Source: Planctomycetia bacterium (lineage in GTDB: Bacteria; Planctomycetota; Phycisphaerae; Phycisphaerales; SM1A02). Taken from it: a DNA stretch of 52,438 bases. The translations under genes and the position numbers were made by a program. Positions 38,200 through 52,438 of this stretch are shown in pieces; positions within the stretch are counted from its first letter, which is position 1; every line of letters begins with the position of its first letter. The DNA lies in assembly GCA_005790605.1 (NCBI GenBank), contig SXUI01000052.1, positions 1 to 52,438 on the forward strand, given 5' to 3'. A model generated the notes under the pieces. It was not told where the DNA came from. It saw nothing but the letters and a program-made list of their open reading frames with translations, and did no database searches.

Positions 38200-38673
38200 A
38201 TGCGCGTTCGGATTCTCCCAACCCTTTCACTCACCCTCGTCGGTATCGCGTTAGGTACCGTGATCTCGACTTTCGATTTCGCTGAAGGGACCTCCTATCT
38301 ACGGGATGACCCTGAGGCATGCGTGAACTGCCATGTCATGCGGCCGCAGTTTGCCTCGTGGGAGCGAGGGCGCCATCACGCAGTGGCGACATGTAACGAT
38401 TGCCACATTCCAGCTGACGGCCTCCACAAGTGGATTGCGAAATCAGCGAACGGTTGGCATCACTCGAAGGCGTTTACGCTCGGCGACTACCCTGAGATCA
38501 TCCGGATCAAAGCGCAGAATCTCGGAGTGGTCGAAGAGAACTGCGTGCGCTGTCATGGGAATCTCTTTCATCACGCGACGCCGCAAGCCGCCGCGCTTGT
38601 CATCAACGATGGGTGTGTGCGATGCCACGCGGGGGTCGCCCACGCAGCCGAGCACTCCATCGTCCCGCACTAG
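38200..38673 (+). CDS. nrfH: Cytochrome c nitrite reductase small subunit (tetrahaem quinol dehydrogenase)
   Basis: 157 residues with an N-terminal membrane anchor (LPTLSLTLVGIALGTVIS) and four haem motifs: CVNCH, CNDCH, CVRCH, CVRCH. This is the NapC/NrfH family pattern. It passes electrons from the quinone pool to NrfA on the outer face of the cytoplasmic membrane. Only 10 bp separate it from hmgA and 24 bp from nrfA. No clear ribosome site precedes ATG 38200, so translation may depend on the upstream gene. Confidence 0.94.
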   Translation: MRVRILPTLSLTLVGIALGTVISTFDFAEGTSYLRDDPEACVNCHVMRPQFASWERGRHHAVATCNDCHIPADGLHKWIAKSANGWHHSKAFTLGDYPEIIRIKAQNLGVVEENCVRCHGNLFHHATPQAAALVINDGCVRCHAGVAHAAEHSIVPH

Positions 38674-38697
38674 AAATTCCCGAACGAGGCCCACGCA

Positions 38698-40227
38698 ATG
38701 CAACTACAAAAGAATTCTGAATCACACCGCTCCATGCATACGGTCTTTCGACCCAAGCGCTCGCATCTGCTTTGGGTCGGCGTGGCGATCGTCGCCGCGA
38801 GCGCAACGGTCGTCGCGTTCGCGCTCCGTGACAACATCGCGACGCGCAAGCAAGAAGGCGCGGCTGTCGCGTTCCGGACCGTGGACCTCGATGAAACAAC
38901 CGTCGACGCTTCGATATGGGGGCGAGATTTTCCGCATCAGTTCGACAGCTACAAGCGAACGGTGGACACCGAGAGGACTCGACACGGCGGAAGCGAGGCG
39001 TACCAGAAACTCGATGAGTCCCCCGTGTGGCGTGAGATTTGGAACGGCTACGCATTCGGCATCGACTTTCGGGAGGATCGCGGACACGCGTACATGCTCG
39101 AAGACCAGCGCAACACAGAGCGTGTCAAACAGCGCAAACAACCAGGTGCGTGCTTGCATTGCCACGCGAGCGCCATTCCCGCATATCGGGCAAAGGGCAT
39201 TGCGGCGGGAGCTCCAGGGACTCCGACCGATGCCCTCACCTCGGCCACTGGACAAGCGCAATTGATGCTTGGATTCGGGGAAGTTTGCAAGATGCCATAT
39301 GCGGACGCGACCGCGCTTGTTGAACATCCAGTCGGCTGCATCGACTGCCACGATCCGAAGACGCTCGCCCTGCGCGTCACTCGCCCTGGAATGTTAGAAG
39401 GCATCGCTGCGCTTGCGAGTGGAGACGCGCCGACTCCCCACCTTCCGAGTATCACCAGATGGCGGGAGGCAGGCAAGAAGGATCATTACAACCCCAATGC
39501 GATGGCATCGCGTCAAGAGATGCGTTCACTCGTCTGCGGTCAGTGCCATGTCGAGTACTACTTCACACCAGATGCGAAACGCGTCACCTATCCATGGATG
39601 TATGGACTGAAAGTTGAGGACGCGGAGCGCTACTACAACGAGCGAAGTTTCAATGACTGGACGCACGCGATCAGTAAGGCGCCCGCGCTCAAAGCGCAAC
39701 ATCCAGAGTTCGAAATGTGGTCGCAGGGCGTGCATGCGCGCATGGGCGTGAGTTGCGCAGATTGCCACATGCCCTATGAGCGACTCGGAGCGGTAAAAGT
39801 GAGCAGCCACCATGTGCGCAGCCCACTTCTGAATGTGACGAATGCGTGTTTGAATTGCCATCCCACCGACGCGGCGGTACTCATCGAGCGAGTCGCAGTG
39901 ATCCAAGACACGACAAAGGCGCTCCTCACGCGAGCTGAGCAAGCGACCGCCGATCTCATCGCGGGCATCGCGCGCGCCGAGACGGTCGGCGCATCCCTCG
40001 ATGTGCTCACGAAGGCGCGCCAACTCCAACGCGCCGCGCAGTTCCGTCTTGACTGGGTAAGCGCGGAGAACTCGATGGGGTTCCACGCGCCCCAAGAGGC
40101 TGCGAGAATCTTGGCCGAGAGCATCGACCATGCGCGCCAAGGCTTGATGGTCCTTGGCGCGGGCGTGTCCCCCGAGGGATCAACGCCCGCTGTTTCGCCA
40201 GTGAAGGTCACACTCGCGGCAGATTGA
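38698..40227 (+). CDS. nrfA: Cytochrome c nitrite reductase, pentahaem
   Basis: Reduces nitrite to ammonium with six electrons in the periplasm. 509 residues, N-terminal anchor or signal (about 22-43), then family blocks GYAFGIDFREDRGHAYML, CGQCHVEYYF and WSQGVHARMGVSCADCHMPY, which carry the active-site Tyr and His. Five haem motifs: CLHCH (152-156), CIDCH (214-218), CGQCH (280-284), CADCH (353-357), CLNCH (384-388). The first, the active-site haem, is CxxCH where most characterised NrfA have CxxCK. GAGG lies eight bases before ATG 38698. It converges with the Rrf2 gene. Confidence 0.94.
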   Translation: MQLQKNSESHRSMHTVFRPKRSHLLWVGVAIVAASATVVAFALRDNIATRKQEGAAVAFRTVDLDETTVDASIWGRDFPHQFDSYKRTVDTERTRHGGSEAYQKLDESPVWREIWNGYAFGIDFREDRGHAYMLEDQRNTERVKQRKQPGACLHCHASAIPAYRAKGIAAGAPGTPTDALTSATGQAQLMLGFGEVCKMPYADATALVEHPVGCIDCHDPKTLALRVTRPGMLEGIAALASGDAPTPHLPSITRWREAGKKDHYNPNAMASRQEMRSLVCGQCHVEYYFTPDAKRVTYPWMYGLKVEDAERYYNERSFNDWTHAISKAPALKAQHPEFEMWSQGVHARMGVSCADCHMPYERLGAVKVSSHHVRSPLLNVTNACLNCHPTDAAVLIERVAVIQDTTKALLTRAEQATADLIAGIARAETVGASLDVLTKARQLQRAAQFRLDWVSAENSMGFHAPQEAARILAESIDHARQGLMVLGAGVSPEGSTPAVSPVKVTLAAD

Positions 40228-40270: not shown

Positions 40271-40792
40271 CTACTCGACGATGTGTTCGATGCCACTCCC
40301 ACCGAGCGCCCGATTTCGCGAGCAGTGTCCTCCGCAGGTTCCAGAACACATCTTTGCAAGATCGCCCACGGACTCAGAGAGCATGCCGCATCCGGCCGGC
40401 CCCGCGTCCGCCGCAACCTCTTCAAGCGAACTCTGCCCGAGCACCCGTCGAATCAACGCATAGGCGGCATCGAGGCGTCGATGCATCGGACACAAGTCGA
40501 GGTGACGCGGGTTCGCGAGTGGGCAGCGCTCGATGCGCGGGATCGGTTCGAGAGCCTCGACGACGGAAAGCATCGAGATCTCTGCGGGTTTTCGAGCAAG
40601 TGTGAATCCTCCCGTCGGCCCACGGCGGCTCTTCACGAGTCCCGCAACGACGAGGTTTCGCATCACCTTCGACATGTAACGCTCCGGAACCTGCGCGTGA
40701 GCAGCGATTACTTGCGCAGACACGGGAAGCGCGCTGTTCGCGCTCAAGAACACCATTGCGCGAAGTGCGTATTCAACGGTTTGAGAAAACAT
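40271..40792 (-). CDS. Rrf2-family transcription regulator with Cys-rich tail
   Basis: 173 residues. N-terminal winged helix typical of Rrf2 (MFSQTVEYALRAMVFLS; LVKSRRGPTGGFTLAR). Cysteines at 90 and 101 occupy the cluster-ligand region used by NsrR/IscR-type regulators for an Fe-S cluster; Cys135 is extra. Beyond the usual end, a tail adds Cys149, Cys153 and Cys157 (CSGTCGGHC), not typical of the family. It starts 15 bp after nosL ends and is probably the last gene of the nos operon. NO, O2 or Fe-S sensing and control of the neighbouring respiratory genes are inference. Confidence 0.9.
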   Translation of the reverse strand: MFSQTVEYALRAMVFLSANSALPVSAQVIAAHAQVPERYMSKVMRNLVVAGLVKSRRGPTGGFTLARKPAEISMLSVVEALEPIPRIERCPLANPRHLDLCPMHRRLDAAYALIRRVLGQSSLEEVAADAGPAGCGMLSESVGDLAKMCSGTCGGHCSRNRALGGSGIEHIVE

Positions 40793-41305: not shown

Positions 41306-42159
41306 GGGCGTGGCCTCCGAGTGAAACAGAGCGCGGCAAGTGCAATGGGTGCGAAGCCCCACACCGACAACGATGCCGCCGCGAACCACGGCAAAGCGCG
41401 CGGGAAGTGATCTGTCGCGTACTGCCCGACCGGCCCGAGGACATCGAGCGGAATCCCACTGCCATCGAGCGACCAGATCTTGAACGCTTGCAGTGGGTTG
41501 ACCATGCACGCGACGAACAACGACTGAATCGACACCTTCCACACAATCGTTCCCGCCATAAGACCTAGATCGCTCACGAACGCAAAGAGCAGCCACGCGA
41601 AAATCGCGAGACCGGTCGCCATGCTCATCCGAGGCGAGAGCACGCTGATGAGCACGCCGACGCCCAACATCCCGACAGCCAAGAAAAGGCTCAAGCACGC
41701 AAGTTGCACCATAGAGATTGCGCGTTCGCTCGAACCCTCGAGTGAAATGACGAGGGCGCACGACCCAAAACCAAAACAGATCGAAGCAGTCAACGCCAGT
41801 GCAAGCCCGAGCCACTTCCCCGCGATGACCTCGAACCGGCTGATCGGCTGAGACAGCAGGAACGCCAACATGCCCCGCTCTCGCTCACTCGCCACGCACC
41901 CCGCTCCGGCGGTGAGCGCCATGAGCGGCACAACCAGGGTGACGAGATTTGCAAGTCCTGCGCTCGTTCGTCCAAATCCTGCAAGGCCGCCTCCTCCCGC
42001 TGTCGATGCGGAAAGAAATGACACTGCAATGCCGAGCAACATGAAGACACCCGTATGCAACAAGAACCAGCGACTGCGAAGCGACTCGCGCAGTTCACGA
42101 CGCGCGAGTGTCCACACATTCGCGCCCATGGACTCAGGCAGTGGTAGGCATCGCGACAT
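41302..42159 (-). CDS. nosY: NosY ABC-transporter permease
   Basis: 285 residues with about six membrane helices and the NosY-type stretch SERERGMLAFLLSQPISRFEVIAGKWLGL. Start at ATG 42159 is favoured by AGGAG seven bases upstream, which lies inside the end of nosF. Works with NosF and NosD in CuZ cluster assembly, moving a sulfur species or driving NosD. Overlaps nosF by 26 bases and nosL by 4. Confidence 0.92.
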   Translation of the reverse strand: MSRCLPLPESMGANVWTLARRELRESLRSRWFLLHTGVFMLLGIAVSFLSASTAGGGGLAGFGRTSAGLANLVTLVVPLMALTAGAGCVASERERGMLAFLLSQPISRFEVIAGKWLGLALALTASICFGFGSCALVISLEGSSERAISMVQLACLSLFLAVGMLGVGVLISVLSPRMSMATGLAIFAWLLFAFVSDLGLMAGTIVWKVSIQSLFVACMVNPLQAFKIWSLDGSGIPLDVLGPVGQYATDHFPRALPWFAAASLSVWGFAPIALAALCFTRRPRP

Positions 42160-42853
42160 CGTCGATCTCCTTTATCGATTTCACACACGCAAAACATGGC
42201 GCAGGCACGCACACCGAACCGTCCGCGGCACAAGCGTGAAGCGCTCCATCGACGATCCACATCGCGCGATCGGCAAGCATCGCTACTTCCTCCTTGCGAT
42301 GTGACGCGAAGACAAGCGTTCGACCCTCGCCACGAAGTTCCATGAGTAGCCGTAGAAACGACTCGCGACCCTCGATGTCGAGACTCGAAGAGAGTTCGTC
42401 GAGCAGAAGCATTGGAGGGTCGCCCAGAAGCGCAATGGCTAACGCGAGACGCTGCTTCATGCCGCCGGAAAGTGCACGGACTCGAGCTTGCGCGTGCTCC
42501 TCGAGAAGCACTGGTCGTAAGACCGCGCGAACATCGGTCGACCGCAAGCCTCGAAGCGCGGCATAAAAGCGCACCGCCTCTGACACGCGCATGTCATCCC
42601 GAAACGCCAATTCCTGCGGGACATACCCTAAGAGTCGGCGCGCCCGCTTGCCATCTGTCCGCACATCGAAGCCCCCGACGCGAATGCTTCCTCGGAAGGA
42701 GTGCACCCCCGTGATGCATTGCATCAGCGTGCTCTTCCCCGCGCCGTTCGTGCCACACAAGGCAACGGACTCACCCTCTGCAACTCGAAGGGAAACACCA
42801 CGAAGCACATGCAGAGATCCAAACGACATACGCACATCGAGAATGTCAATCAT
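42134..42853 (-). CDS. nosF: NosF ABC-transporter ATPase
   Basis: 239 residues from ATG 42853, six bases after GGAG. Walker A GTNGAGKST (about 34-42), signature LSGGMKQ (about 128-134), Walker B MLLLDE with the catalytic Glu. Forms the NosDFY complex needed for CuZ site assembly. The C-terminus carries a short Cys-rich segment (CAADGSVCVPAPCFACV) not part of the ATPase core, function unknown. Overlaps nosD by eight bases. Confidence 0.93.
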   Translation of the reverse strand: MIDILDVRMSFGSLHVLRGVSLRVAEGESVALCGTNGAGKSTLMQCITGVHSFRGSIRVGGFDVRTDGKRARRLLGYVPQELAFRDDMRVSEAVRFYAALRGLRSTDVRAVLRPVLLEEHAQARVRALSGGMKQRLALAIALLGDPPMLLLDELSSSLDIEGRESFLRLLMELRGEGRTLVFASHRKEEVAMLADRAMWIVDGALHACAADGSVCVPAPCFACVKSIKEIDDVAMPTTA

Positions 42854-44207
42854 GGCGAGCTCCAATCGCACTCACGAACGAGACACACAGCAGCACCACA
42901 GACGCGATGAGCGCTGAAGATCGAGATGTGACCGGCGCGATTGGGCGCTCACGCCCCGCAGCGAAGGTGCGATCGATCGACGGCGGTGGCATCGTCAGCG
43001 GGTACTCGTCCACAAACACCGCAGGCGGTCGAATCGCTGGCAATGCGCGCGCGACGAAATCGACTGCCTGCTCCGCGGGACTGAAACGGAAAACCGCCAA
43101 TCGCGGCTCTCGGGCGATGAGTTGACCAAAGAGCGCTGTCGGTTCATGCACCCACTCACCAACACCATCGCCGTCTTCGTCGTAACCGATGTAGTCCGAC
43201 CAGTAGTTCCCGCGCTCGGCTTCGTCAAACGCGTTGGCGTACAGGTCTCCACGCCCGAGCGGCGTCACGCTTTGCAGGTTGTCAAAGAATGCGTTGCCTG
43301 CAATCACATTGCCTTTGGAATTCGGCAACACGCTCATGGCGATGTTGTTGCACGCGATGACATTCTCGATGAGTTTGGCGTGACCAGGTCGGAAGGGCGC
43401 ATCATCCATGTAGACGCCGACGCAGTTTTCGCGAATGAGATTTCGTTCCAAGCGATAGTCGGAGACCTCCTTGAGGCCAATTCCAAATCCACTTGGACCA
43501 CGGTTGCGAGCAATCAGATTGTCACGGACATCGACGGTGTCGCTGTACATGATGTAGATGCCGACAGAATTTCCAACGAACTCGTTTCGCTCGACAACGA
43601 CTTGATGGCTATACATCAAGTGAAAACCGTAGCGGCAGTGCTCCACGCGATTGCCTCGCACCTGGACTGCTTTGGAGTACCACAACACGGCATCGCGACC
43701 GTCGTGCAGCGTGTTGTTCTCAATGAGCGTGCGATCGGATTGCCAAAGACGCAGGCCATCGCCGCGCCGCGCGATGTCCAGTGATTTTCCGCCGACGACA
43801 TTGCCGCGCAGAATGCTGTCGGGTGCGCCACGAAGGTCGATCCCAAAGAGCACATCCTCAAGCCGATTATCTTCAAGCGTCACGCGCGGAGCGAGCACGC
43901 GAATGCCGCAGTTCTCTTTATCAAGATCATCGCCCGTCGATCGCACATCAAACCCGCGCACAGTGACATCCGCGGAAGTGATCAACAGCAAGTCTCCCCG
44001 TCCATGTCCCTCAATAATCGGTCGATCCACGCCCTCGAGCGTGAGAGGCTTGTCGATCGTCACCACACCTCGGTACCGCCCCGATGGGACTCGCACTACG
44101 GCACCAGGCGCAGCGTCACGAATGAGCGCGGCGAGGTCGAGCCCACCACTCTGTGGACTCGACCCAGCCACTGCCCACAAAATCGCGACGAGGGCGCCGC
44201 TCGTCAT
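42846..44207 (-). CDS. nosD: NosD copper-site assembly protein
   Basis: 453 residues: exported right-handed beta-helix protein of the carbohydrate-binding/sugar-hydrolase repeat (CASH) type, with repeats such as VTVRGFDVRSTGD, VQVRGNRVEHCRYGFHLMYS and VVVERNEFVGNSVGIYIMYS. NosD-typical RGNYWSDYIGYDEDGDGVGEW is present. A C-terminal hydrophobic helix (SALIASVVLLCVSFVSAIGA) could anchor it. Acts in the periplasm with NosF/NosY on NosZ maturation. Starts with an ATGA overlap with the NosB-like gene. Confidence 0.94.
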   Translation of the reverse strand: MTSGALVAILWAVAGSSPQSGGLDLAALIRDAAPGAVVRVPSGRYRGVVTIDKPLTLEGVDRPIIEGHGRGDLLLITSADVTVRGFDVRSTGDDLDKENCGIRVLAPRVTLEDNRLEDVLFGIDLRGAPDSILRGNVVGGKSLDIARRGDGLRLWQSDRTLIENNTLHDGRDAVLWYSKAVQVRGNRVEHCRYGFHLMYSHQVVVERNEFVGNSVGIYIMYSDTVDVRDNLIARNRGPSGFGIGLKEVSDYRLERNLIRENCVGVYMDDAPFRPGHAKLIENVIACNNIAMSVLPNSKGNVIAGNAFFDNLQSVTPLGRGDLYANAFDEAERGNYWSDYIGYDEDGDGVGEWVHEPTALFGQLIAREPRLAVFRFSPAEQAVDFVARALPAIRPPAVFVDEYPLTMPPPSIDRTFAAGRERPIAPVTSRSSALIASVVLLCVSFVSAIGARHD

Positions 44208-44884
44208 GCTGCAGCCCTCATCGCTTCCCGCTCGCGCGCAGCCGTTTCAAAGAGCGGCTTGTATGCGCGTCGGTGGAGAAAAATCCCCGCAATGACAAGG
44301 AGTGAACTCGCGCACGCGAGCCACCAACCAGTCTCAACTCTTGCAACGGTCTTGAACTGTCCAATCTCGCCGACACCAAGCGCCGGAGACGTGAACGGCT
44401 TGACGCTTGAGGACAGCGGCGCCGAAGGGTCGAGATTCTGTCCAAAGTGATACAGCCAGAACTGCAAATCAGCGAGAAATCCCAGCGGGAAAAGCATCGC
44501 TGGGAGGACCAACAGCAGTGCCCACCGGCTGTGCACAATGGCGGCCAACTCAATGAGAAGAAACATCGCGAGCACCATCCACACCGCCGTCGCACGCTCA
44601 AAGTTCGCAGCCTCTTCCAACGGGCGCATTCCGATGTAGTGATTGAGGCCATTCACCTCTGCCACGTCCCCTGAGAGCGTATTGACATATGCAATGACGC
44701 CAAGTCCATCGGGATACTGCGGCGCCTCAAGCACCATGCTCCAGTATGGGAAAAAGACTGAGACGATGAGCAGGATGCGCGCCGCGGTCAACACAACGGT
44801 TGGGAGCGCGTAGCGGGCACCCCGCGTGAGCAACTCATCGTTGCTCACGCGGGGCCCAAACAAGCTGAACATCACGCTTGTCAC
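44204..44884 (-). CDS. nosB: NosB-like membrane protein of clade II nos clusters
   Basis: 226 residues, about five membrane helices. The GLNHYIGMRPLEEAANFER segment is characteristic, as I recall it, of the membrane protein encoded directly after clade II nosZ. It starts with GTG overlapping the nosZ stop (GTGA) and GGAGG ten bases upstream. Its function in N2O reduction is not settled; it is absent from clade I operons, so its presence supports the clade II assignment. Confidence 0.8.
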   Translation of the reverse strand: MTSVMFSLFGPRVSNDELLTRGARYALPTVVLTAARILLIVSVFFPYWSMVLEAPQYPDGLGVIAYVNTLSGDVAEVNGLNHYIGMRPLEEAANFERATAVWMVLAMFLLIELAAIVHSRWALLLVLPAMLFPLGFLADLQFWLYHFGQNLDPSAPLSSSVKPFTSPALGVGEIGQFKTVARVETGWWLACASSLLVIAGIFLHRRAYKPLFETAAREREAMRAAA

Positions 44885-46968
44885 GGCTTGGATGCCTCCG
44901 TGACCTTGACTGCGGGTTCCGATGGCTTCACGACCATGTACCCGAGCATTTCAAGATGCAGAGCAGAACAGAACTCGGTGCAATAGAAGGGATACACACC
45001 TGACTTGTCAGCCTTGAAGTGCAGCGTGGCCGACTCACCAGGCTCGAGGCTGAGGTTGATGTTGTAGCCACCGATGCAGAAACCGTGGGTCGCGTCGAGC
45101 GATTGCTCTTGGCTTGTGATGTGCATCGTGACGCTGTCGCCTTCATTCAACTCGAAGCGATCAGGCGCGAAGTGACTGCGCACCGCCGTCATGTAGACGG
45201 TGACATTGTGCCCATCACGAACCACCTTCTCCTCGCCAAGCTTCACGGCGTTGGGATCCGGTGACTGCGTTTGCGGATTCCATCCAACGGCGGGGTAGAC
45301 CGTCCATGGATGAAGCTTGTCCGCTTTGATCATCTGCGCGTAGTGCGGTTCACCGACACCGATGGGCATGTCGTACAGCACAGGCATCGTTGTGCCCGAT
45401 TTGGCAATGTCAACCAACTGGAAATTCTGCGGGAGAAGTGGACCGGTGGGGAAGAAGCGATCAAGCGACCACTTGTTCATCGCGACGAGGTAACCGCCAT
45501 CGGGCGAGACGGTGTCGCCCTCTGCCGCAACGAGGTGCCCAATGTTGTATTGGACCGGCGTCTTCGTCACGAGTTTCCATGGTTCCTCAGGATGCTTCGA
45601 TGCGTACTCTCCGCCGAGCGTCCAGCGCGCGACCGCGCTATCAAGGAAGAGTGATGTGTATGCGTAGCCTTGATTGTCGTACTGTGTGTGCAGAGGGCCA
45701 AGACCGAGCTCAACCTGCACTTCCATCACGGCATCAAAGTCGAGCACGGGAATCCCATACGCATCGCTGCTTGAGAACTTCTTCTTGGCGATTGCGTCGC
45801 GAATCTTGGTGTTGCTGTACACGGTGACATGAGGATCAAGTTTGCCGGCAACGACGATGAACTCGCCGTTGGGAGTGACATCAACGCCATGCGGACTCTT
45901 GGGCTCGGGCGCCAAGCAGAGCACGCCCTCTTCCGCCGCCTTCTTCATCTTCATGACTGGAAAGCCGTTGACCATCTCACAACCACCAGCGGCGAACACT
46001 TGCGCCGCCTTCTTCCAGTCAATGATGTGGAGGTAATCGGTGTCGCGCTGACTGCAACCTGCTTCGAAGTTCACTGCACCAATGTCGAAGCCCGGCGTGA
46101 CGCTCTCGACGCAGAAGGAGTTGAGGAAGATCAGGCCATCGCTCACCTTTTTCCCAGCATCCGCAAGATCTTGGAAGTACGGAGGAAGCTCAAGCGCGAA
46201 GGACTTCGAAGGGTCGATCCGCCCGGTTTTCCGATCGAACTTCCAGAGCGTGACCATGCCGCGATAGTTCGCCTCATAGTCCTCGACAGTCGAGTATGCG
46301 AAACCCAACGGCGTTGAGTATTGACCACCTTCCACGATGTAATCCGTGTCAGGCGTCACGAAGGATGCGCCGTGATCGCTCACGGTGAGCGGATTCTTGA
46401 CGATCTGCTTCGTTTCCATATCGCGCAAGTCAATCACTGCGAGTCGCGCATTGGCCTTGTCGCCGATGAAGAGAAACTGACCGTCGTACTCGCCACCCGT
46501 TTCGCTCAGCGCTGGGTGGTGGGTGTCGCCCCAAAGCACTTCGGACTCTCCAAAGTTGCCTTGCTCGAGCACCTCTTGACCGGCACCATATCCATAGCCC
46601 TGCCATGGCTCAGGCGTGAAGACCGCGATCGAGCGAAGCAGGCGCATGGACGGCACGCCAATCATGAACACCTGGCCGGAGTGACCACCGCTCGAAAAGA
46701 TGATGTAGTCGTCGAGCTTGCCACTCGGCAGATAGGTCTTGAGCGCTGCGGTCAGGTCCTCAACTCGAAGCCCGCGCTCGGTTGCGACCTTCTGCAAGTC
46801 TGCAGCAACCGCTGGCGTGATCTCCACTGCAGCAATCTCGGCCTCCTTGCGACGCTTTTTCTTGGTCGTGTCCTGCGCTGCGGCAGCCGGAACATCAAAC
46901 ACGAAGCTCGCGCCGACGCCAAGTGTCATGGCGAAGCTGAGCGTGAAGATTGGAACTCTGTGTCTCAC
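44881..46968 (-). CDS. nosZ: Nitrous oxide reductase, clade II (Sec-type)
   Basis: Reduces N2O to N2 in the periplasm. 695 residues, GTG start with GGAGG seven bases upstream. The N-terminus is a Sec-type signal without twin arginine (MRHRVPIFTLSFAMTLG), as in clade II. CuZ propeller ligands include GGHSG (His96) and GDTHH (148-151). The C-terminal cupredoxin has the CuA site: His628, Cys663, Cys667, His671 and Met674 in HGFCIGG and CTEFCSALHLEM. It follows a diheme cytochrome gene by 35 bp and is followed by nosB, nosD, nosF, nosY and nosL. Confidence 0.97.
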   Translation of the reverse strand: MRHRVPIFTLSFAMTLGVGASFVFDVPAAAAQDTTKKKRRKEAEIAAVEITPAVAADLQKVATERGLRVEDLTAALKTYLPSGKLDDYIIFSSGGHSGQVFMIGVPSMRLLRSIAVFTPEPWQGYGYGAGQEVLEQGNFGESEVLWGDTHHPALSETGGEYDGQFLFIGDKANARLAVIDLRDMETKQIVKNPLTVSDHGASFVTPDTDYIVEGGQYSTPLGFAYSTVEDYEANYRGMVTLWKFDRKTGRIDPSKSFALELPPYFQDLADAGKKVSDGLIFLNSFCVESVTPGFDIGAVNFEAGCSQRDTDYLHIIDWKKAAQVFAAGGCEMVNGFPVMKMKKAAEEGVLCLAPEPKSPHGVDVTPNGEFIVVAGKLDPHVTVYSNTKIRDAIAKKKFSSSDAYGIPVLDFDAVMEVQVELGLGPLHTQYDNQGYAYTSLFLDSAVARWTLGGEYASKHPEEPWKLVTKTPVQYNIGHLVAAEGDTVSPDGGYLVAMNKWSLDRFFPTGPLLPQNFQLVDIAKSGTTMPVLYDMPIGVGEPHYAQMIKADKLHPWTVYPAVGWNPQTQSPDPNAVKLGEEKVVRDGHNVTVYMTAVRSHFAPDRFELNEGDSVTMHITSQEQSLDATHGFCIGGYNINLSLEPGESATLHFKADKSGVYPFYCTEFCSALHLEMLGYMVVKPSEPAVKVTEASKP

Positions 46969-47003: not shown

Positions 47004-47951
47004 TTACTGCTGACCCGGATGCTTCTGAAGCCAGCGCAGATAGGCGACGATCTGAAAGAGTCGATCGTCGTTCAGTGCGGGATTTCCGCCACGCGGCGGC
47101 ATATCCACTTTGGTTGTGTTCAATGGGTCACTCGTCGACCGACCCTTGCCGAGAAACGCAATGATCGCCTCATCGTCGGTCATCTGTTGGATGAAGGTGC
47201 TTGCGACGAGGTCTTTGCCGAGCTTGGGAAGACCGCGACCATCGACGCCGTGACAAGAAACGCAACTCATCGCGTACAAGCGCGCACCCATCGTGATGTC
47301 GCCTGTCTCATACTCCGGATCCTCGTAGCGCGCGTCACCGCTTTCGCCAGAGGCGCCAGCCGTGGGGAGTGCCGGCGCCATGGCCATGAGCACATCCATC
47401 ACATGTTCGGTCGTCGGGACCGGAAGCACTGGCATGCGCTCGCGATTCTGCAGTGCGCGGACATACGCAACGACATCCGTGACCTGCGCGTCGGAGAGCG
47501 TCGGGTTCCCTCCTGAAGGTGGCATCGCGATGCCTGTCGTGTTGAGTGGATCGGTCGCTTCACGACCTTTGCGAACGAAGGCGAAAAGCTCGCCGTCATC
47601 AAGTCCTCGGCAGAAGGCACTGAGCACCAGATCTTTCCCGAGTCCTGGTTGACCTCGTCCCGTTCCACCGTGGCAGGTTGCACAAGTCGAGAGAAAGAGC
47701 GCGCGACCGCGCGTTGCCTGCGCGACTTCGATCACGGGTCCTTCCACGAGTGGTAGTCCGTCAAGCGATGTGTCTCGAAGATGCCAAGCCTGCGCGGAAG
47801 TCATGAGCGTCCACGCTCCCCAGACGAGACCGACAACGAATAGCAGCGCGCCAGTCGTGAGGCCGAGTGCGAAAAGTTCAGTTGCGCCTCGCCGAAACCG
47901 AGGGTTTTCGAATCGCGAGGCCGGGTGGAGTGGAGAGCGAACTTGCGCCAT
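47004..47951 (-). CDS. Membrane-anchored diheme cytochrome c of the nos operon
   Basis: 315 residues from ATG 47951 (AGGA just upstream). One N-terminal membrane helix (FALGLTTGALLFVVGLVWGAW) then two cytochrome c domains with CATCH and CVSCH haem motifs. They are similar to each other: both contain GRG-P-LGKDLV and DPLNTT--MPP-GGNP. Each haem's axial Met lies in the MPP stretch. In other clade II clusters two separate monohaem proteins (NosC1, NosC2) fill this place; here they seem fused. Expected to carry electrons to NosZ. First gene of the nos operon. Confidence 0.88.
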   Translation of the reverse strand: MAQVRSPLHPASRFENPRFRRGATELFALGLTTGALLFVVGLVWGAWTLMTSAQAWHLRDTSLDGLPLVEGPVIEVAQATRGRALFLSTCATCHGGTGRGQPGLGKDLVLSAFCRGLDDGELFAFVRKGREATDPLNTTGIAMPPSGGNPTLSDAQVTDVVAYVRALQNRERMPVLPVPTTEHVMDVLMAMAPALPTAGASGESGDARYEDPEYETGDITMGARLYAMSCVSCHGVDGRGLPKLGKDLVASTFIQQMTDDEAIIAFLGKGRSTSDPLNTTKVDMPPRGGNPALNDDRLFQIVAYLRWLQKHPGQQ

Positions 47952-47976
47952 GTGAATTCCTGAATCTCTGAGTGAT

Positions 47977-48011
47977 AGATATTTATATCCTAAACTATGT
48001 TGGACAGTCAA
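47977..48011 (-). promoter_or_regulatory. Promoter of the nos operon with palindrome over -10
   Basis: On the minus strand: TTGACT (48011-48006), 18-bp spacer, TATAAA (47987-47982), about 30 bp before the cytochrome gene's ATG. A palindrome GGATATAAATATCT (47990-47977) covers the -10 box; it differs at 2 of 14 positions from the one over the ccoN -10 box. Confidence 0.72.
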
Positions 48012-48135
48012 GTCGGCTCCCGCGAACTCGAGCCGATGGCAACAACTGGCGTTGGAGCTTGATAACAGCGATTATTCTCGGACTATTGAACCGCCGACTT
48101 CGAAATCCCACGAGACGGCAGTTCCTCCCTTCACC

Positions 48136-49521
48136 CTAGTGTCCGCCCGTAACCCGATCGCAATCGTCAAGCGCGCTCTTCCAGCCAACGCGCCGTGGAT
48201 CACGAGCAACAATGCGAGCAATCACCACGCGCGCTTGGGAAGGTGCTCCGCTCTCGAGGAGGACGCTCGCGAGTGGCACGTCAATCTCGTCGCAGTGAAA
48301 CAGAGACCAAGTTTGCGCTAACTCGAGCTGCGCGTGCGCGAGGCTCCGATCGCCGCGCTCCCAGGATGCCACGCCATGCTGCGTGATGTGACGAACCGCG
48401 CCGGCTTGAAGGAGAAACACAGCAAGCAACGCGAGCACAGCGCAGAGCACCCAACCTGATCGCGTGATTTGTGCGCTTCGCTTGAGCGTCGCACGAGCCC
48501 AACGAACATCTCGACGCGACGCGACGCGGACTGCAATGACTGCGGACCAAGCGACCAACGCTGCGATCGCCATCGCGAGAAAAAACGGAATGGCGCCATA
48601 CAAGCCGCGCGTCACGACGAATGCACCGACACCTGCTACGAGCGCGAAGCATTCTTCCGCGAGCGAGCAGTCATAAGGCACTCCAAATCTCCCCCACTTG
48701 CGCCAACTCAGCAAGCCGCTTGGCTTCGAGAACCCGAATTCAATCGCACCCCGCGGGCACGCATCAACGCAATCAAGATCTTTCAAACACGCTGGACTCA
48801 CGACACGCCCGAAACGCGCAAGCTCTTGATGCACTCGAATGTGCGAGTTGCACGCTGCAGTGCACTTGGCGCACCCTGCACAACCGTCCGGCGATTCGAC
48901 CAACTTGATGCGCCCAATCGCCGCGCGATCGGCAACGGCGAACACGGCGCCGTAGGGGCAGACATAGGTGCAGAAGGAACGGCTTCCCATCAGGTACACA
49001 AGGACGAATCCGCAGAACACGAAGGTGATGACCGCAATCCACCATGGAGGAAGGTTGCGGAAAAAGTCCGTCGTCATGAGCGAACCAAATCCTTGCGCGT
49101 CTGTCGAGATTCGCATCGGTCCCCACGCGGCGCCTGCGTTGAAGCGCGCGACCTGCGGCCACGCGAACATGTAGAGCGCGGCCGCGACCGGCAGGAGCAG
49201 CAGCACGCGCATCCGCACAGGCTTTGGGCGAATCCCGATGCGCGCGAGCGCCCACTCCGAAAGGTCTTGGAGCGCGAGCACATGACAGCCCCACGAGCAA
49301 AAAAACCGACCGACGATGACAACGCTCACGATGATGAGCGCGATGAGTATGAATCCGGTCGTGATCACGCCATGCTCAAGCGTGAACATCGACTCATTGA
49401 GTTCTACGGGCGCGAGCGCTCTTCCCGCGAAGTACCAACAGGAGATATGCACTGCAATGAGCAAGTGCACACCGAGAAGAGTGCATGCGCGCCAACGGGA
49501 TCGACTCACTATCACTCCCAC
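48136..49521 (-). CDS. NapH/NosR-like membrane iron-sulfur protein
   Basis: Up to 461 residues; start uncertain among GTG 49521, 49515 (GTGA overlap) and 49509 (GGAG five bases upstream). About five to six membrane helices, the CSWGC and CTYVCPYG motifs of the NapH/NosR/CcoG family, then two [4Fe-4S] sites (CAGCAKCTAAC and CLKDLDCVDACP). The last 70 residues are a soluble helical tail. No FMN-binding domain of full NosR is seen. Encoded in one unit with a pentaheme cytochrome, it probably moves electrons between quinol and periplasmic haem proteins. Beside the nos operon it may serve NosZ; that is inference. Confidence 0.88.
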   Translation of the reverse strand: MGVIVSRSRWRACTLLGVHLLIAVHISCWYFAGRALAPVELNESMFTLEHGVITTGFILIALIIVSVVIVGRFFCSWGCHVLALQDLSEWALARIGIRPKPVRMRVLLLLPVAAALYMFAWPQVARFNAGAAWGPMRISTDAQGFGSLMTTDFFRNLPPWWIAVITFVFCGFVLVYLMGSRSFCTYVCPYGAVFAVADRAAIGRIKLVESPDGCAGCAKCTAACNSHIRVHQELARFGRVVSPACLKDLDCVDACPRGAIEFGFSKPSGLLSWRKWGRFGVPYDCSLAEECFALVAGVGAFVVTRGLYGAIPFFLAMAIAALVAWSAVIAVRVASRRDVRWARATLKRSAQITRSGWVLCAVLALLAVFLLQAGAVRHITQHGVASWERGDRSLAHAQLELAQTWSLFHCDEIDVPLASVLLESGAPSQARVVIARIVARDPRRVGWKSALDDCDRVTGGH

Positions 49522-51347
49522 GCTGAGAGCATCATCGCGAGATCAGCCGCATCCACGACGCCGTCCCCAGAGAGATCGGCTGCGTGATTGTGCGCGCCCC
49601 ATGCGTTGAGCATGACGGCGAGGTCCGTTCCGCCCACCACGCCGTCGCAATCGAGATCTCCGAAGACGAATCCAGAGATTGCGCTGCTGAGCGTGGCCAT
49701 GGAAATCGGCGCGCACTTGCCGGATTGCTCCCACAGGTCGTAAAGCTCTTGACCCTTTGTATTGGTGTGGTTGCCATCCCGCAGCGCCTCGATGTAATGA
49801 CGCGTCACCGTCTGGTAGTTGAGCGTGACTTCGACGCGATTCACGCCGTCCGGAATCGCGAAGGAGACATCGCTCCAATGCTGACCGTCGGCATACACGC
49901 CCGCGATCGCCGGAGCGCCAGCAGCTGCGTAGGTTTCATTGTCGAAACCTCGTGGTGGGATGCGATTGTCTTTCACGATCACATCGGCGAGCGCCATGTG
50001 CGTCGTTTCGCCCGCCGGATAGCCGGTCAATGCCGACGCATCAGGGCTCAATCCGACATGCATTTCATAGACGACTGTGGTCTCTTCATCGAGATGCGCC
50101 TGCGCCATGTCGTAGTGACCATACTCGCGCGCAAGAGTCTTCTTGCCCGAGTAGAACTTGACATTGAGCCAGATGCGCCGTCCCTCGATATGACCCGTCG
50201 GAATCTTGTGACCGCTCTCGTTGGTCACGCGAACCGTGTAGTGACCGCACTCTTGCGCTGCGCTGAGTGATGCAGCCCGTTGCAACATGTCGACTGCAGC
50301 TGCCTGCCCGGCGAGAAGCGACTTCTGGTTGACGCTTGGGTCATTCGGATACGCCATCGCAATGATCTGCAAGACCCACGCGCTTGCGCCCGCGAAGTCA
50401 TGACGGGCCAAGTCTGGATATTCAGGCCCCCACACACACGCTTGGCCGACCGCGCGTGGCATGTGGCAATCTTGGCAACTTGAAACGACGCCGCCCCCAA
50501 CGCCGCCGAAACGGCCACCCATGTCTACGCCACCTTGATTGAATGCGCTGAGTTTCCACTCCGTGTAGGTTCGCTCAAGTGGGAACTGCGTCCATGGATC
50601 ATGATTCGGCGTCGGTTCGCCGATCGCGTTGTATCGGTAGACGCCGTCTGCATCGCGCGTGATGCAGAGGTTGCCAACATCGTGGCAGGTGCCACACATG
50701 TCACCCGATTTGAAAAAATCTGATTGAATCGTCGCATGCGCTGCAAGTGGCGTGACTCGAGGACCTCTCCGCGTGCCATTCGGATCAAGCACGAACGCCG
50801 CGTTGCCGTAGTACTCAGGAACCTCAGCGAGCGCAGCGAGTACTGCGGCGTCCTCAGAAGGGCTCTCGCCCTTGACATACTGAGGATCGACCATGGCATG
50901 ACAGAAATGGCAACTCACGCCATCGGAGTCGAACGGGTCGCGCTCTGATCCATCCGGGGGCAGCGCGTGACCGGTCGGAATGGACATCGGCACATGGCAG
51001 CGCATGCAGTAGTAGCCCGCGTATGTGACATCTTGATTCGCGGTCACCATCTGCGCTTCAAACAGCGGGTCTCGACCGGCATGTGCCATCAGACTTCCAG
51101 ACCAAGTTGTGTAGGGATCCGCGGTGTTGAGCGTGAGCCCGTGACACCCCATGCAGTTGTCGCTCTGCAGCATCATGTCTTCTGTCATGTCCCCGATCTG
51201 CGTACCGGGGAGATGAAAGTCCTCCTCTGTCGTCGGGATCAATCCCCCTGCGATCAGCGTCGCGGAGCAGAGGAGGACGATGATTGCACGGCGTCGGCGC
51301 TTCTGGGGAAGGGTGGTCGGATCTACGGCTGGAGCTTCGAGGGACAC
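49512..51347 (-). CDS. Pentahaem cytochrome c with dockerin-like tail
   Basis: About 611 residues from GTG 51347, set by GGAGG seven bases upstream; the TTG at 51353 is too close to that site. N-terminal signal or anchor (AIIVLLCSATLIAGGLIP). Five haem motifs in the first half: CMGCH, CMRCH, CHFCH, CGTCH, CQDCH (about residues 65-295). A beta-rich half follows, including GHYTVRVTNESGHKIPTGH, a stretch seen in multihaem cytochromes of the c554/DUF families. The end has two dockerin-like hands (GDLDCDGVVGGTDLAVMLNAWG; GDGVVDAADLAMMLSAW). An electron-transfer protein apparently tagged like the exported glycan-related proteins; partner is the downstream membrane Fe-S protein. Confidence 0.88.
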   Translation of the reverse strand: MSLEAPAVDPTTLPQKRRRRAIIVLLCSATLIAGGLIPTTEEDFHLPGTQIGDMTEDMMLQSDNCMGCHGLTLNTADPYTTWSGSLMAHAGRDPLFEAQMVTANQDVTYAGYYCMRCHVPMSIPTGHALPPDGSERDPFDSDGVSCHFCHAMVDPQYVKGESPSEDAAVLAALAEVPEYYGNAAFVLDPNGTRRGPRVTPLAAHATIQSDFFKSGDMCGTCHDVGNLCITRDADGVYRYNAIGEPTPNHDPWTQFPLERTYTEWKLSAFNQGGVDMGGRFGGVGGGVVSSCQDCHMPRAVGQACVWGPEYPDLARHDFAGASAWVLQIIAMAYPNDPSVNQKSLLAGQAAAVDMLQRAASLSAAQECGHYTVRVTNESGHKIPTGHIEGRRIWLNVKFYSGKKTLAREYGHYDMAQAHLDEETTVVYEMHVGLSPDASALTGYPAGETTHMALADVIVKDNRIPPRGFDNETYAAAGAPAIAGVYADGQHWSDVSFAIPDGVNRVEVTLNYQTVTRHYIEALRDGNHTNTKGQELYDLWEQSGKCAPISMATLSSAISGFVFGDLDCDGVVGGTDLAVMLNAWGAHNHAADLSGDGVVDAADLAMMLSAWE

Positions 51348-51423
51348 TTGCAATCCTCCTTAGATACAGATATATGTCTCCGTTTATCGTATTACGCAAG
51401 ACGCGCCAGCACTTTTTCCCGAT

Positions 51424-51458
51424 TTGACAATTCAAACAGATCCGGATATACATATCCG
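51424..51458 (+). promoter_or_regulatory. Promoter of ccoN with 16-bp palindrome over -10
   Basis: TTGACA (51424-51429), 17-bp spacer, TATACA (51447-51452): a near-consensus sigma-70 promoter. The perfect 7-bp-arm palindrome CGGATATACATATCCG (51443-51458) covers the -10 box and would block polymerase if bound. Confidence 0.78.
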
Positions 51459-51522
51459 TATACTCTAAGAAGCCCTTGTTCTCCATTGCCGAGGGCACTG
51501 CGAACCCCTTTCGGAACAGCAC

Positions 51523-52438
51523 ATGTCGAACTCGACAACCGCCAACCCCTCCCACCCGACGCCTTCGGCGACGCCCGCGAGGCGCGTCCTTGAGCAGTTC
51601 TCCTACGACGACTCGACCTGCCGCCTCTTCCTAGGCGCCACAGTGCTCTGGGGCGTGGTTGGGCTCCTCGTTGGGGTCCTCATTGCATTGCAACTTGCCG
51701 ATCCTCGCTTCAACCTCGGACTGGAGTGGACGAGTTTCGGTCGCCTTCGACCGCTGCACACGAATGCTGTGATCTTCGCGTTCGCGGGCAACGCCGTCTT
51801 CCTCGCCGTCTACTACTCGAGTCAACGCCTTCTGAAGGCGCGAATGTTCAGCGATCTGCTCTCGCGCGTGCACTTCTGGGGATGGCAAGCCATTATCGCG
51901 TCGGCGGCGCTCACGCTTCCCTTGGGCGCCACGCAAGGCAAGGAATATGCGGAACTCGAATGGCCCATCGACGTCGCCGTCGTCTTCGTGTGGGTCGTGT
52001 TCGCTGTCAACCTCTTCGGAACAATCGCGAAACGGCGCGAGCGGCATCTCTATGTTGCGCTATGGTTCTACATCGCGACCGTGGTCGCGATCGCGGTCCT
52101 CTACATCTTTAACAACCTGGTGATTCCTGCGGGCTGGCTTCGCTCGTATTCCATCTATGCAGGAACCCAAGACGCGTTCATGCAGTGGTGGTATGGGCAT
52201 AACGCCGTCGCGTTCTTCTTGACGACGCCGTTTCTTGGCCTCATGTACTACTTTCTTCCCAAAGCCGCGGATCGGCCTGTTTTCTCGTATCGGCTGTCGA
52301 TCGTGCACTTCTGGACGATCGTGTTTCTGTATGTCTGGGCTGGTCCCCACCACCTGCATTACACCGCGCTTCCTGCGTGGGCAAGCACGCTGGGCATGCT
52401 CTTCAGCTTGATGCTCTGGATGCCTTCCTGGGGAGGCA
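51523..52438 (+). CDS. ccoN: cbb3-type cytochrome c oxidase subunit I, 3' end beyond window
   Basis: High-affinity terminal oxidase catalytic subunit. The visible 305 residues include the low-spin haem ligand region [12 protein letters not shown] (His79), the CuB ligand regions [16 protein letters not shown] (His226) and [13 protein letters not shown] (His276, His277), and about eight membrane helices, all typical of CcoN rather than CcoO or aa3 enzymes. Starts at ATG 51523, about 65 nt after the promoter's expected start point. A fused ccoNO or separate ccoO should follow outside the window. Confidence 0.95.

Follow-up and report, generated by a model that had tools for sequence, protein, structure and literature searches.

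A palindromic motif shared by the nos, cbb3 oxidase and pentahaem cytochrome promoters of a planctomycete, and a candidate Rrf2-family repressor

Does one regulator govern both nitrous oxide (N2O) respiration and low-oxygen respiration in a planctomycete? The question is raised by a stretch of DNA of 52,438 nt, hereafter the window, from Planctomycetia bacterium (SM1A02; assembly GCA_005790605.1, contig SXUI01000052.1), whose genome comprises 3,034,408 bases. The window contains an N2O reductase (nos) operon and the start of a cbb3 oxidase (cco) operon, and similar palindromes lie over the -10 boxes of the two promoters. The 14-mer GGATATAAATATCT of the nos promoter (47977-47990, minus strand) and the 14-mer GGATATACATATCC of the cco promoter (51444-51457, plus strand) agree at 12 of 14 bases and are self-complementary at 10 and 12 of their 14 positions, respectively. 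An earlier reading of this DNA (the original prediction) had described them as two near-identical palindromes at the same promoter position, and its coordinates, strands and count of identical bases were right; the -10 hexamer begins at base 4 of the 14-mer in both promoters. The palindrome is real, but the 14-mer of the original prediction (16 bp if extended) is only part of a putative operator of about 20-24 bp.

The element is rare in the organism's own genome. Exact matches to GGATATAHATATCY number two in the 3.03-Mb genome, at the nos and cco promoters, where an order-0 model gives an expectation of about 0.03. Scanning the genome for the motif had been proposed with the original prediction, and the motif is thus non-random and sits at promoters of respiratory genes. 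No further place in the own genome was found when one mismatch was allowed. Two mismatches brought in a third window site, S3, and five places elsewhere (L003, L004, L006, L007 and L008), all of which lie inside open reading frames (ORFs) and were dismissed as regulon sites. The reversed GGATATAHATATCY, used as a control at up to two mismatches in the own genome, gave 0 forward and 1 reverse match.

The full extent of the element was obtained from related loci. A de novo expectation-maximization motif search, seeded with random stretches and not with GGATATAAATATCT or GGATATACATATCC, was applied to the DNA upstream of the first nos gene at 34 loci; the window was among them, so that the scores of nos sites are in-sample. 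The relatives compared are not independent of one another, and some of the metagenome-assembled genomes (MAGs) are fragmentary. The resulting matrix describes a 24-bp palindrome, t.GATATaT.GATC.AtATATC.a, of 22.7 bits, in outline roughly GATAT-N4-GATC-N4-ATATC with a palindrome spacing of 7-6-7. At least 15 bits were reached by 30 of the 34 nos regions (in-sample), with L010, L014, L016 and L094 scoring lower. In 1.25 Mb of locus DNA there were 31 matches of at least 20 bits; ten column-permuted controls gave 0-2 each. Of the relatives' 30 nos sites of at least 15 bits, 16 have TTGA in the -35 position, where 1.1 would be expected; this count tallies the window itself as a miss, since a different frame has the top score there. 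The sites and promoters of the window are as follows.

47968-47999, minus strand: putative nos operator S1, with the core GGATATAAATATCT; two 24-bp matrix frames, overlapping at an offset of 8 bp, score 19.2 and 17.3 bits (in-sample); two mismatches to the 19-mer GGATATANATATCNRTATC
47982-48011, minus strand: sigma70-like nos promoter, read from the sequence; TTGACT (48006-48011), 18-nt spacer, TATAAA (47982-47987) within S1
51435-51466, plus strand: putative cco operator S2, with the core GGATATACATATCC; 17.9 and 16.7 bits; one mismatch to the 19-mer
51424-51452, plus strand: sigma70-like cco promoter; TTGACA (51424-51429), 17-nt spacer, TATACA (51447-51452) within S2
51359-51390, minus strand: putative operator S3 of the pentahaem cytochrome gene, core GGAGACATATATCTGTATCT; 20.8 and 14.6 bits; two mismatches to the 19-mer; counterpart in L147

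Each of the three sites occurs in two matrix frames, 8 bp apart, and no other place in the window reaches 12 bits; sixty order-1 random windows yielded a single match of at least 17 bits, the largest value being 19.7. The original prediction had also mentioned an AT-rich relative before the pentahaem cytochrome gene, and this has turned out to be a true third site, S3, with 20.8 bits and two mismatches to the 19-mer. This weaker relative (51362-51381, minus strand) lies directly 5' of the apparent ribosome-binding site of the pentahaem gene. A search of the own genome with GGATATANATATCNRTATC at up to three mismatches returned S1, S2, S3 and one place within the DNA polymerase III alpha gene, which was discarded as a regulon member; the reversed control gave 0 and 0. 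A shifted 19-mer again found S1-S3 and the polymerase gene; its reversed control gave 0 and 1 matches in the own genome, and 0 and 0 in three others. Since matches to the 19-mer are so few in the own genome, the regulon appears small at the sensitivity tested, and would consist of nos, cco and the pair formed by the pentahaem gene and an adjoining gene for a NapH-like protein.

A second model, R1, was built from 26 sites, each in both directions: 25 were nos sites from the set of 34 regions, and the other was L011. Excluded were the window itself (L009) and L010, L012, L014, L016, L035, L036, L041 and L094. On the window at E 10, R1 ranked S1, S2 and S3 alone. Applied to 30 nos genomes at E 1 or better, it found 17 places in 15 of the 30: 14 nos promoters, which are the model's own sources, two pentahaem-linked places (L105 and L113), and L119. 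L113 looked unrelated at first and is the promoter of a pentahaem orthologue. L119, in G073, matches at E 0.88 and lies between two ORFs that are presumably lysine-2,3-aminomutase-like and tryptophanase-like genes.

The site recurs before the other two target genes in part of the relatives. At least 17 bits were reached upstream of 6 of 14 pentahaem orthologues (at least 52% identity, upstream DNA present, window included; the duplicate L148 and the cut-off L162 were dropped). The orthologue of G081 (L156) has no site of its own, but a 30.1-bit site (L105) precedes the adjoining homologue of the NapH-like gene, which is 37% identical to that of the window and is found upstream of the pentahaem orthologue at a distance of about 0.5 kb or less. 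Among pentahaem paralogues of 44% identity or less, none of the 16 scored, from 26 places found, rose above 9 bits. For ccoN, the first gene of the cco operon, 8 of 29 loci reached at least 17 bits (26 of the 30 nos genomes have ccoN; the window was added and the duplicate L148 dropped), and the closest ccoN genes, at least 81% identical, have the operator in 4 of 6 cases besides the window. The background, taken from mechanically called ORFs other than the target genes, was 2 of 436 other upstream regions at this threshold, one of the two being L105. Among the closest relatives, the L020 genome has sites at the nos operon, at three ccoN copies, at the pentahaem gene and at an rrf2 gene, along with three further three-mismatch matches; that of L019 has two sites in the ccoN-nos interval, and that of L018, at the same stringency, has the nos site alone.

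The regulator proposed by the original prediction is encoded locally:

40271-40792, minus strand: candidate repressor of the Rrf2 family, encoded by the final nos-operon gene; PF02082 E 2.3e-29, TIGR00738 over its cut-off

Its reading frame opens 15 bases past the end of the nosL frame, a Rrf2 homologue lies downstream of nosL in many planctomycete loci, and 28 of the 30 genomes with related nos loci have a Rrf2 match at 1e-12. The linkage of operator and regulator extends beyond the nos operon. The nearest Rrf2 homologue (L179, 75% identical) is encoded in the L020 genome away from the nos operon, on a contig that also has a ccoN copy; its gene has a site of its own, GGATATACATATCG, in a 24-mer of 21.5 bits starting 98 bases upstream. 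The second rrf2 gene of L040 likewise has a site of 19.4 bits starting 39 bases upstream. When the ccoN loci of 60 relatives were scored, 4 of 22 reached at least 17 bits. Three of these belong to order-level relatives (G037, G042 and G046) in which a Rrf2 of 47-50% identity is encoded divergently from ccoN with the operator between the two genes, at 17.9, 22.2 and 24.9 bits, and in which no nosZ match was found at 1e-50; the fourth is G058, whose Rrf2 adjoining ccoN is only 35% identical to that of the window. The own genome encodes only one other Rrf2, on contig 76; it shares 29% identity with the nos-linked protein and has homologues of 83-93% in three genus mates (G001-G003), which gave no match for nosZ, ccoN or the nos-linked Rrf2. 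These three genomes look as if the respiratory block had been gained or lost as a unit.

The protein belongs to the Rrf2 superfamily, with 102.7 bits for PF02082 (cut-off 30) and 106.9 bits for TIGR00738 (cut-off 73.3). The wing motif Lx3Gx6Gx2GGx2L, described for Rrf2 regulators (PMC9338935), is present as LVVAGLVKSRRGPTGGFTL. Thirty-nine sequences, picked by locus out of 85 distinct Rrf2 homologues, were aligned; C90 and C101 are conserved in all 39, H104 in 38, E7 in 35 and H97 in 32, the last being Cys in 7 of the 39, namely the cco-facing Rrf2 proteins and those of other phyla. To judge from these residues, C90, H97, C101 and H104 form a plausible metal or Fe-S site. The window Rrf2 and that of L179 have an extra cysteine-rich tail (e.g. 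CSGTCGGHC) that was not seen in the other 37 aligned homologues. Identity as NsrR, IscR, RirA or CymR was rejected, the scores being below the NCBIfam cut-offs (NsrR 37.3 versus 182 bits; IscR 38.3 versus 207.55). The nearest solved structures by sequence are 6y45 (E 2.6e-14) and 6hsd (E 1.2e-13), both taken to be RsrR. In RsrR an N-terminal Glu is a ligand, and the alignment puts a Glu at the matching N-terminal place of the window protein. In IscR, likewise a member of the Rrf2 family, the Cys/His ligand loop has a spacing similar to that of the window Rrf2; the targets of IscR are different.

Taken together, the palindromes are most likely the operators of one small regulon, read by the Rrf2 protein whose gene ends the nos operon and which acts as a repressor, with a probability of roughly 0.77. 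The suggestion of the original prediction that nos and cco share one regulator agrees with the presence of the operator before nos in relatives and before cco in the closest of them, and its choice of the local Rrf2 is strengthened by two further placements of the operator, namely at some rrf2 genes not belonging to the nos operon and in the rrf2-ccoN interval of the three relatives lacking a nosZ match. The regulon would comprise the nos operon (dihaem cytochrome, nosZ, nosD, nosF, nosY, nosL and rrf2), the pentahaem/NapH-like pair and the cbb3 oxidase operon. A Rrf2 dimer would occupy the palindrome of about 20-24 bp over the -10 box and block RNA polymerase; it is the overlap of operator and -10 box that argues for repression by occlusion. 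As rrf2 lies within the nos operon, the protein would restrain its own synthesis. Alteration of the putative metal or Fe-S site (C90, H97, C101, H104) by nitric oxide (NO), oxygen or redox state would release Rrf2 from the DNA, and the N2O-respiring and low-oxygen-respiring chains would then be made together. Copper is the metal of both NosZ and the cbb3 oxidase and is a further conceivable signal.

Several observations weigh against this assignment. R1 found no match in the own genome at E 10, and most ccoN promoters are without a site (8 of 29 and 4 of 22 reach 17 bits in the two sets). The upstream regions of rrf2 genes reach at least 17 bits in only 8 of 83 cases scored, although many of those below 17 bits come after nosL and would not require a separate promoter (this sorting was not rigorous). 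G028 has nosZ and a Rrf2 of 56% identity, yet no cco site, and its nos region scores just 13.6 bits. The cco sites of L132, L135 and L254 face a Rrf2 of 32-35% identity instead. The genome of L018 (G061) has an exact nos site, yet its sole Rrf2 is of the contig-76 type (75% identical to that protein and 28% to the window Rrf2), and in L018 itself nosL is followed by a nrfA homologue with no rrf2 between them. In the genome of L032 (G075) the motif is present and the one Rrf2 is only 36% identical over 89 residues. Gaps in the MAGs could explain the absence of a close Rrf2 from these last two genomes, and loss of the regulator or another reader of the operator is possible there. The two genomes, together with the missing rrf2 at its usual place in L018, are also what favors the idea that the operator belongs to some other transcription factor encoded elsewhere, with Rrf2 a passenger of the nos cluster. 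That is nonetheless unlikely, given that L179 and L040 have sites at rrf2 genes not belonging to the nos operon, that three genomes lacking a nosZ match have one in the rrf2-ccoN interval, that 28 of 30 nos genomes have a Rrf2 match, and that the nos-linked Rrf2 is missing from the same-genus genomes lacking nos.

The position of the sites bears on what a bound Rrf2 would do. RsrR has been described as likely both an activator and a repressor (PMC5015018), and a similar activating or dual role might be proposed here. The sites are at repressing positions, however, S1 and S2 overlapping the -10 box and S3 lying immediately 5' of the start codon, and such a role seems quite improbable. Overlap with TATAAA and TATACA at the right distance from TTGACA-like hexamers would also suit a conserved promoter element (sigma-factor recognition or an extended -10) with no repressor involved. 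A palindrome of 20-24 bp far exceeds a -10 box, however, its frames recur 8 bp apart, an ordinary -35 box is present, and at 17 bits the element is absent from 434 of 436 other upstream regions and from the 16 scored pentahaem paralogues, so that this explanation is very hard to sustain. Within the window the 14-mer with three mismatches is only mildly unusual (6 matches, equalled in 4 of 100 shuffles), as AT-rich look-alikes arising by chance would be. Chance was rejected, and is scarcely credible, on the genome-wide counts (two exact matches against 0.03 expected) and on conservation, sites being found in related genomes beyond the training set.

The proposed Rrf2 repressor resembles several known regulators in part. 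Like NsrR, it is a Rrf2-family protein with an inverted-repeat operator of similar design, that of NsrR being gATGyAT-N5-ATrCATc (PMC1274295), and NsrR represses denitrification genes including nosZ in Magnetospirillum (PMC11014258). The operator here is instead GATAT-rich (GATATaT.GATC.AtATATC) with a center one base longer and does not conform to the NsrR consensus; the loop of the window Rrf2 has two Cys and two His rather than three Cys, the number of invariant Cys described for ScNsrR (PMC5411485); and the proposed regulon takes in a cbb3 oxidase. The [2Fe-2S] protein RsrR of Streptomyces venezuelae also has two adjacent sites, located between rsrR and its divergent neighbor, but its site is 11-3-11 bp (PMC5015018), and the palindrome here is 7-6-7. 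Scaffolds with clade II nos genes have been reported to be enriched in Rrf2 regulators, whose role was called difficult to predict; no operator or regulon is given for them in the available portion of that paper (PMC6264515). DNR and NnrR, of the CRP/FNR family, likewise control nosZ together with other denitrification genes (PMC1274295), but their site is CTTGATnnnnATCAAG, and the shared element here differs in sequence. In the open-access literature searched, Rrf2-cbb3 and Planctomycetota topics included, no description of this operator or regulon was found.

N2O is a greenhouse gas for which clade II N2O reducers form an important biological sink, yet the literature searched says little about how their nos genes are switched on in bacteria other than Proteobacteria. 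Now that a specific protein, a defined operator and three promoters have been put forward, the control of clade II nos becomes a testable question. If nos and a high-affinity oxygen reductase are indeed controlled jointly, this would be relevant to N2O use at sites where traces of oxygen persist. A broader and tentative proposal, rated at a little under even odds, is that a distinct Planctomycetota subfamily of Rrf2, with a C-x6-H-x3-C-x2-H loop and a 7-6-7 operator in overlapping frames, is a dedicated switch for clade II N2O reduction that in one lineage took over the cbb3 oxidase, which in distant relatives faces a different Rrf2 (28-36% identical). If so, N2O respiration and low-oxygen respiration would be expressed as a unit, governed by one sensor based on a metal or a cluster.

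The other genes of the three transcription units are listed below.

47004-47951, minus strand: dihaem cytochrome c, first nos-operon gene; Cytochrome_CBB3/Cytochrom_C, two CxxCH, ATG at 47951
44881-46968, minus strand: nosZ, Sec-dependent type; TIGR04246 827.8 bits (cut-off 625)
44204-44884, minus strand: conserved nos-operon ORF; no family match, homologues in many nos loci
42846-44207, minus strand: nosD; PF05048 E 1.9e-40
42134-42871, minus strand: nosF-type ABC ATPase; PF00005
41302-42159, minus strand: nosY-type ABC permease; PF12679
40808-41815, minus strand: NosL-domain protein; PF05573 E 4.4e-8
49512-51353, minus strand: pentahaem cytochrome with C-terminal dockerin-type domain (mhc); five CxxCH, NF041540 33.5 bits (cut-off 29)
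48136-49521, minus strand: NapH-like 4Fe-4S membrane protein (fer); TIGR02163 54.7 bits, below cut-off
51523-52437, plus strand: ccoN, start of the cbb3 oxidase gene, cut by the window end; PF00115 E 2.3e-70, TIGR00780 416 bits and NF011053 541 bits, both below cut-off on the cut protein

The nosZ of the window is assumed to be of clade II, and the ORF at 44204-44884 presumably occupies a nosB-like position. The fer and pentahaem genes probably share one transcript, and the pairing of a pentahaem cytochrome with a dockerin-type domain (49512-51353) looks unusual. The genes nrfH and nrfA (38200-40227) are convergent to rrf2. Membership of nrfHA in the regulon was rejected, there being no fourth site in the window at 12 bits or more with the matrix or at E 10 with R1. 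Control of cco by an FNR-type regulator was also rejected: TTGACAATTCAA lies near cco without what is taken to be the spacing of an FNR site, although no systematic search for FNR sites was made.

Some further observations concern the relatives. In two Rhodothermus MAGs (L058 and L061) GGATAAATGTATCT/C stands upstream of the nos-linked rrf2 and matches the motif weakly, at 13.0 and 13.4 bits, hinting that this type of operator is perhaps older than Planctomycetota. At 17 loci of distant relatives (L122-L145, L241, L246, L251 and L254) ccoN faces a different Rrf2, 28-36% identical to that of the window, and inspection by eye found these intervals to be mostly without the operator; two types of Rrf2 thus seem, on these comparisons, to serve cco in different lineages. 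The cco-rrf2 interval of the L020 genome (L179, 586-1407) contains the remnant of a NapH-like gene, 42% identical over 219 residues, the first part of which has a repeated DNA unit (CVDVCPT in one frame).

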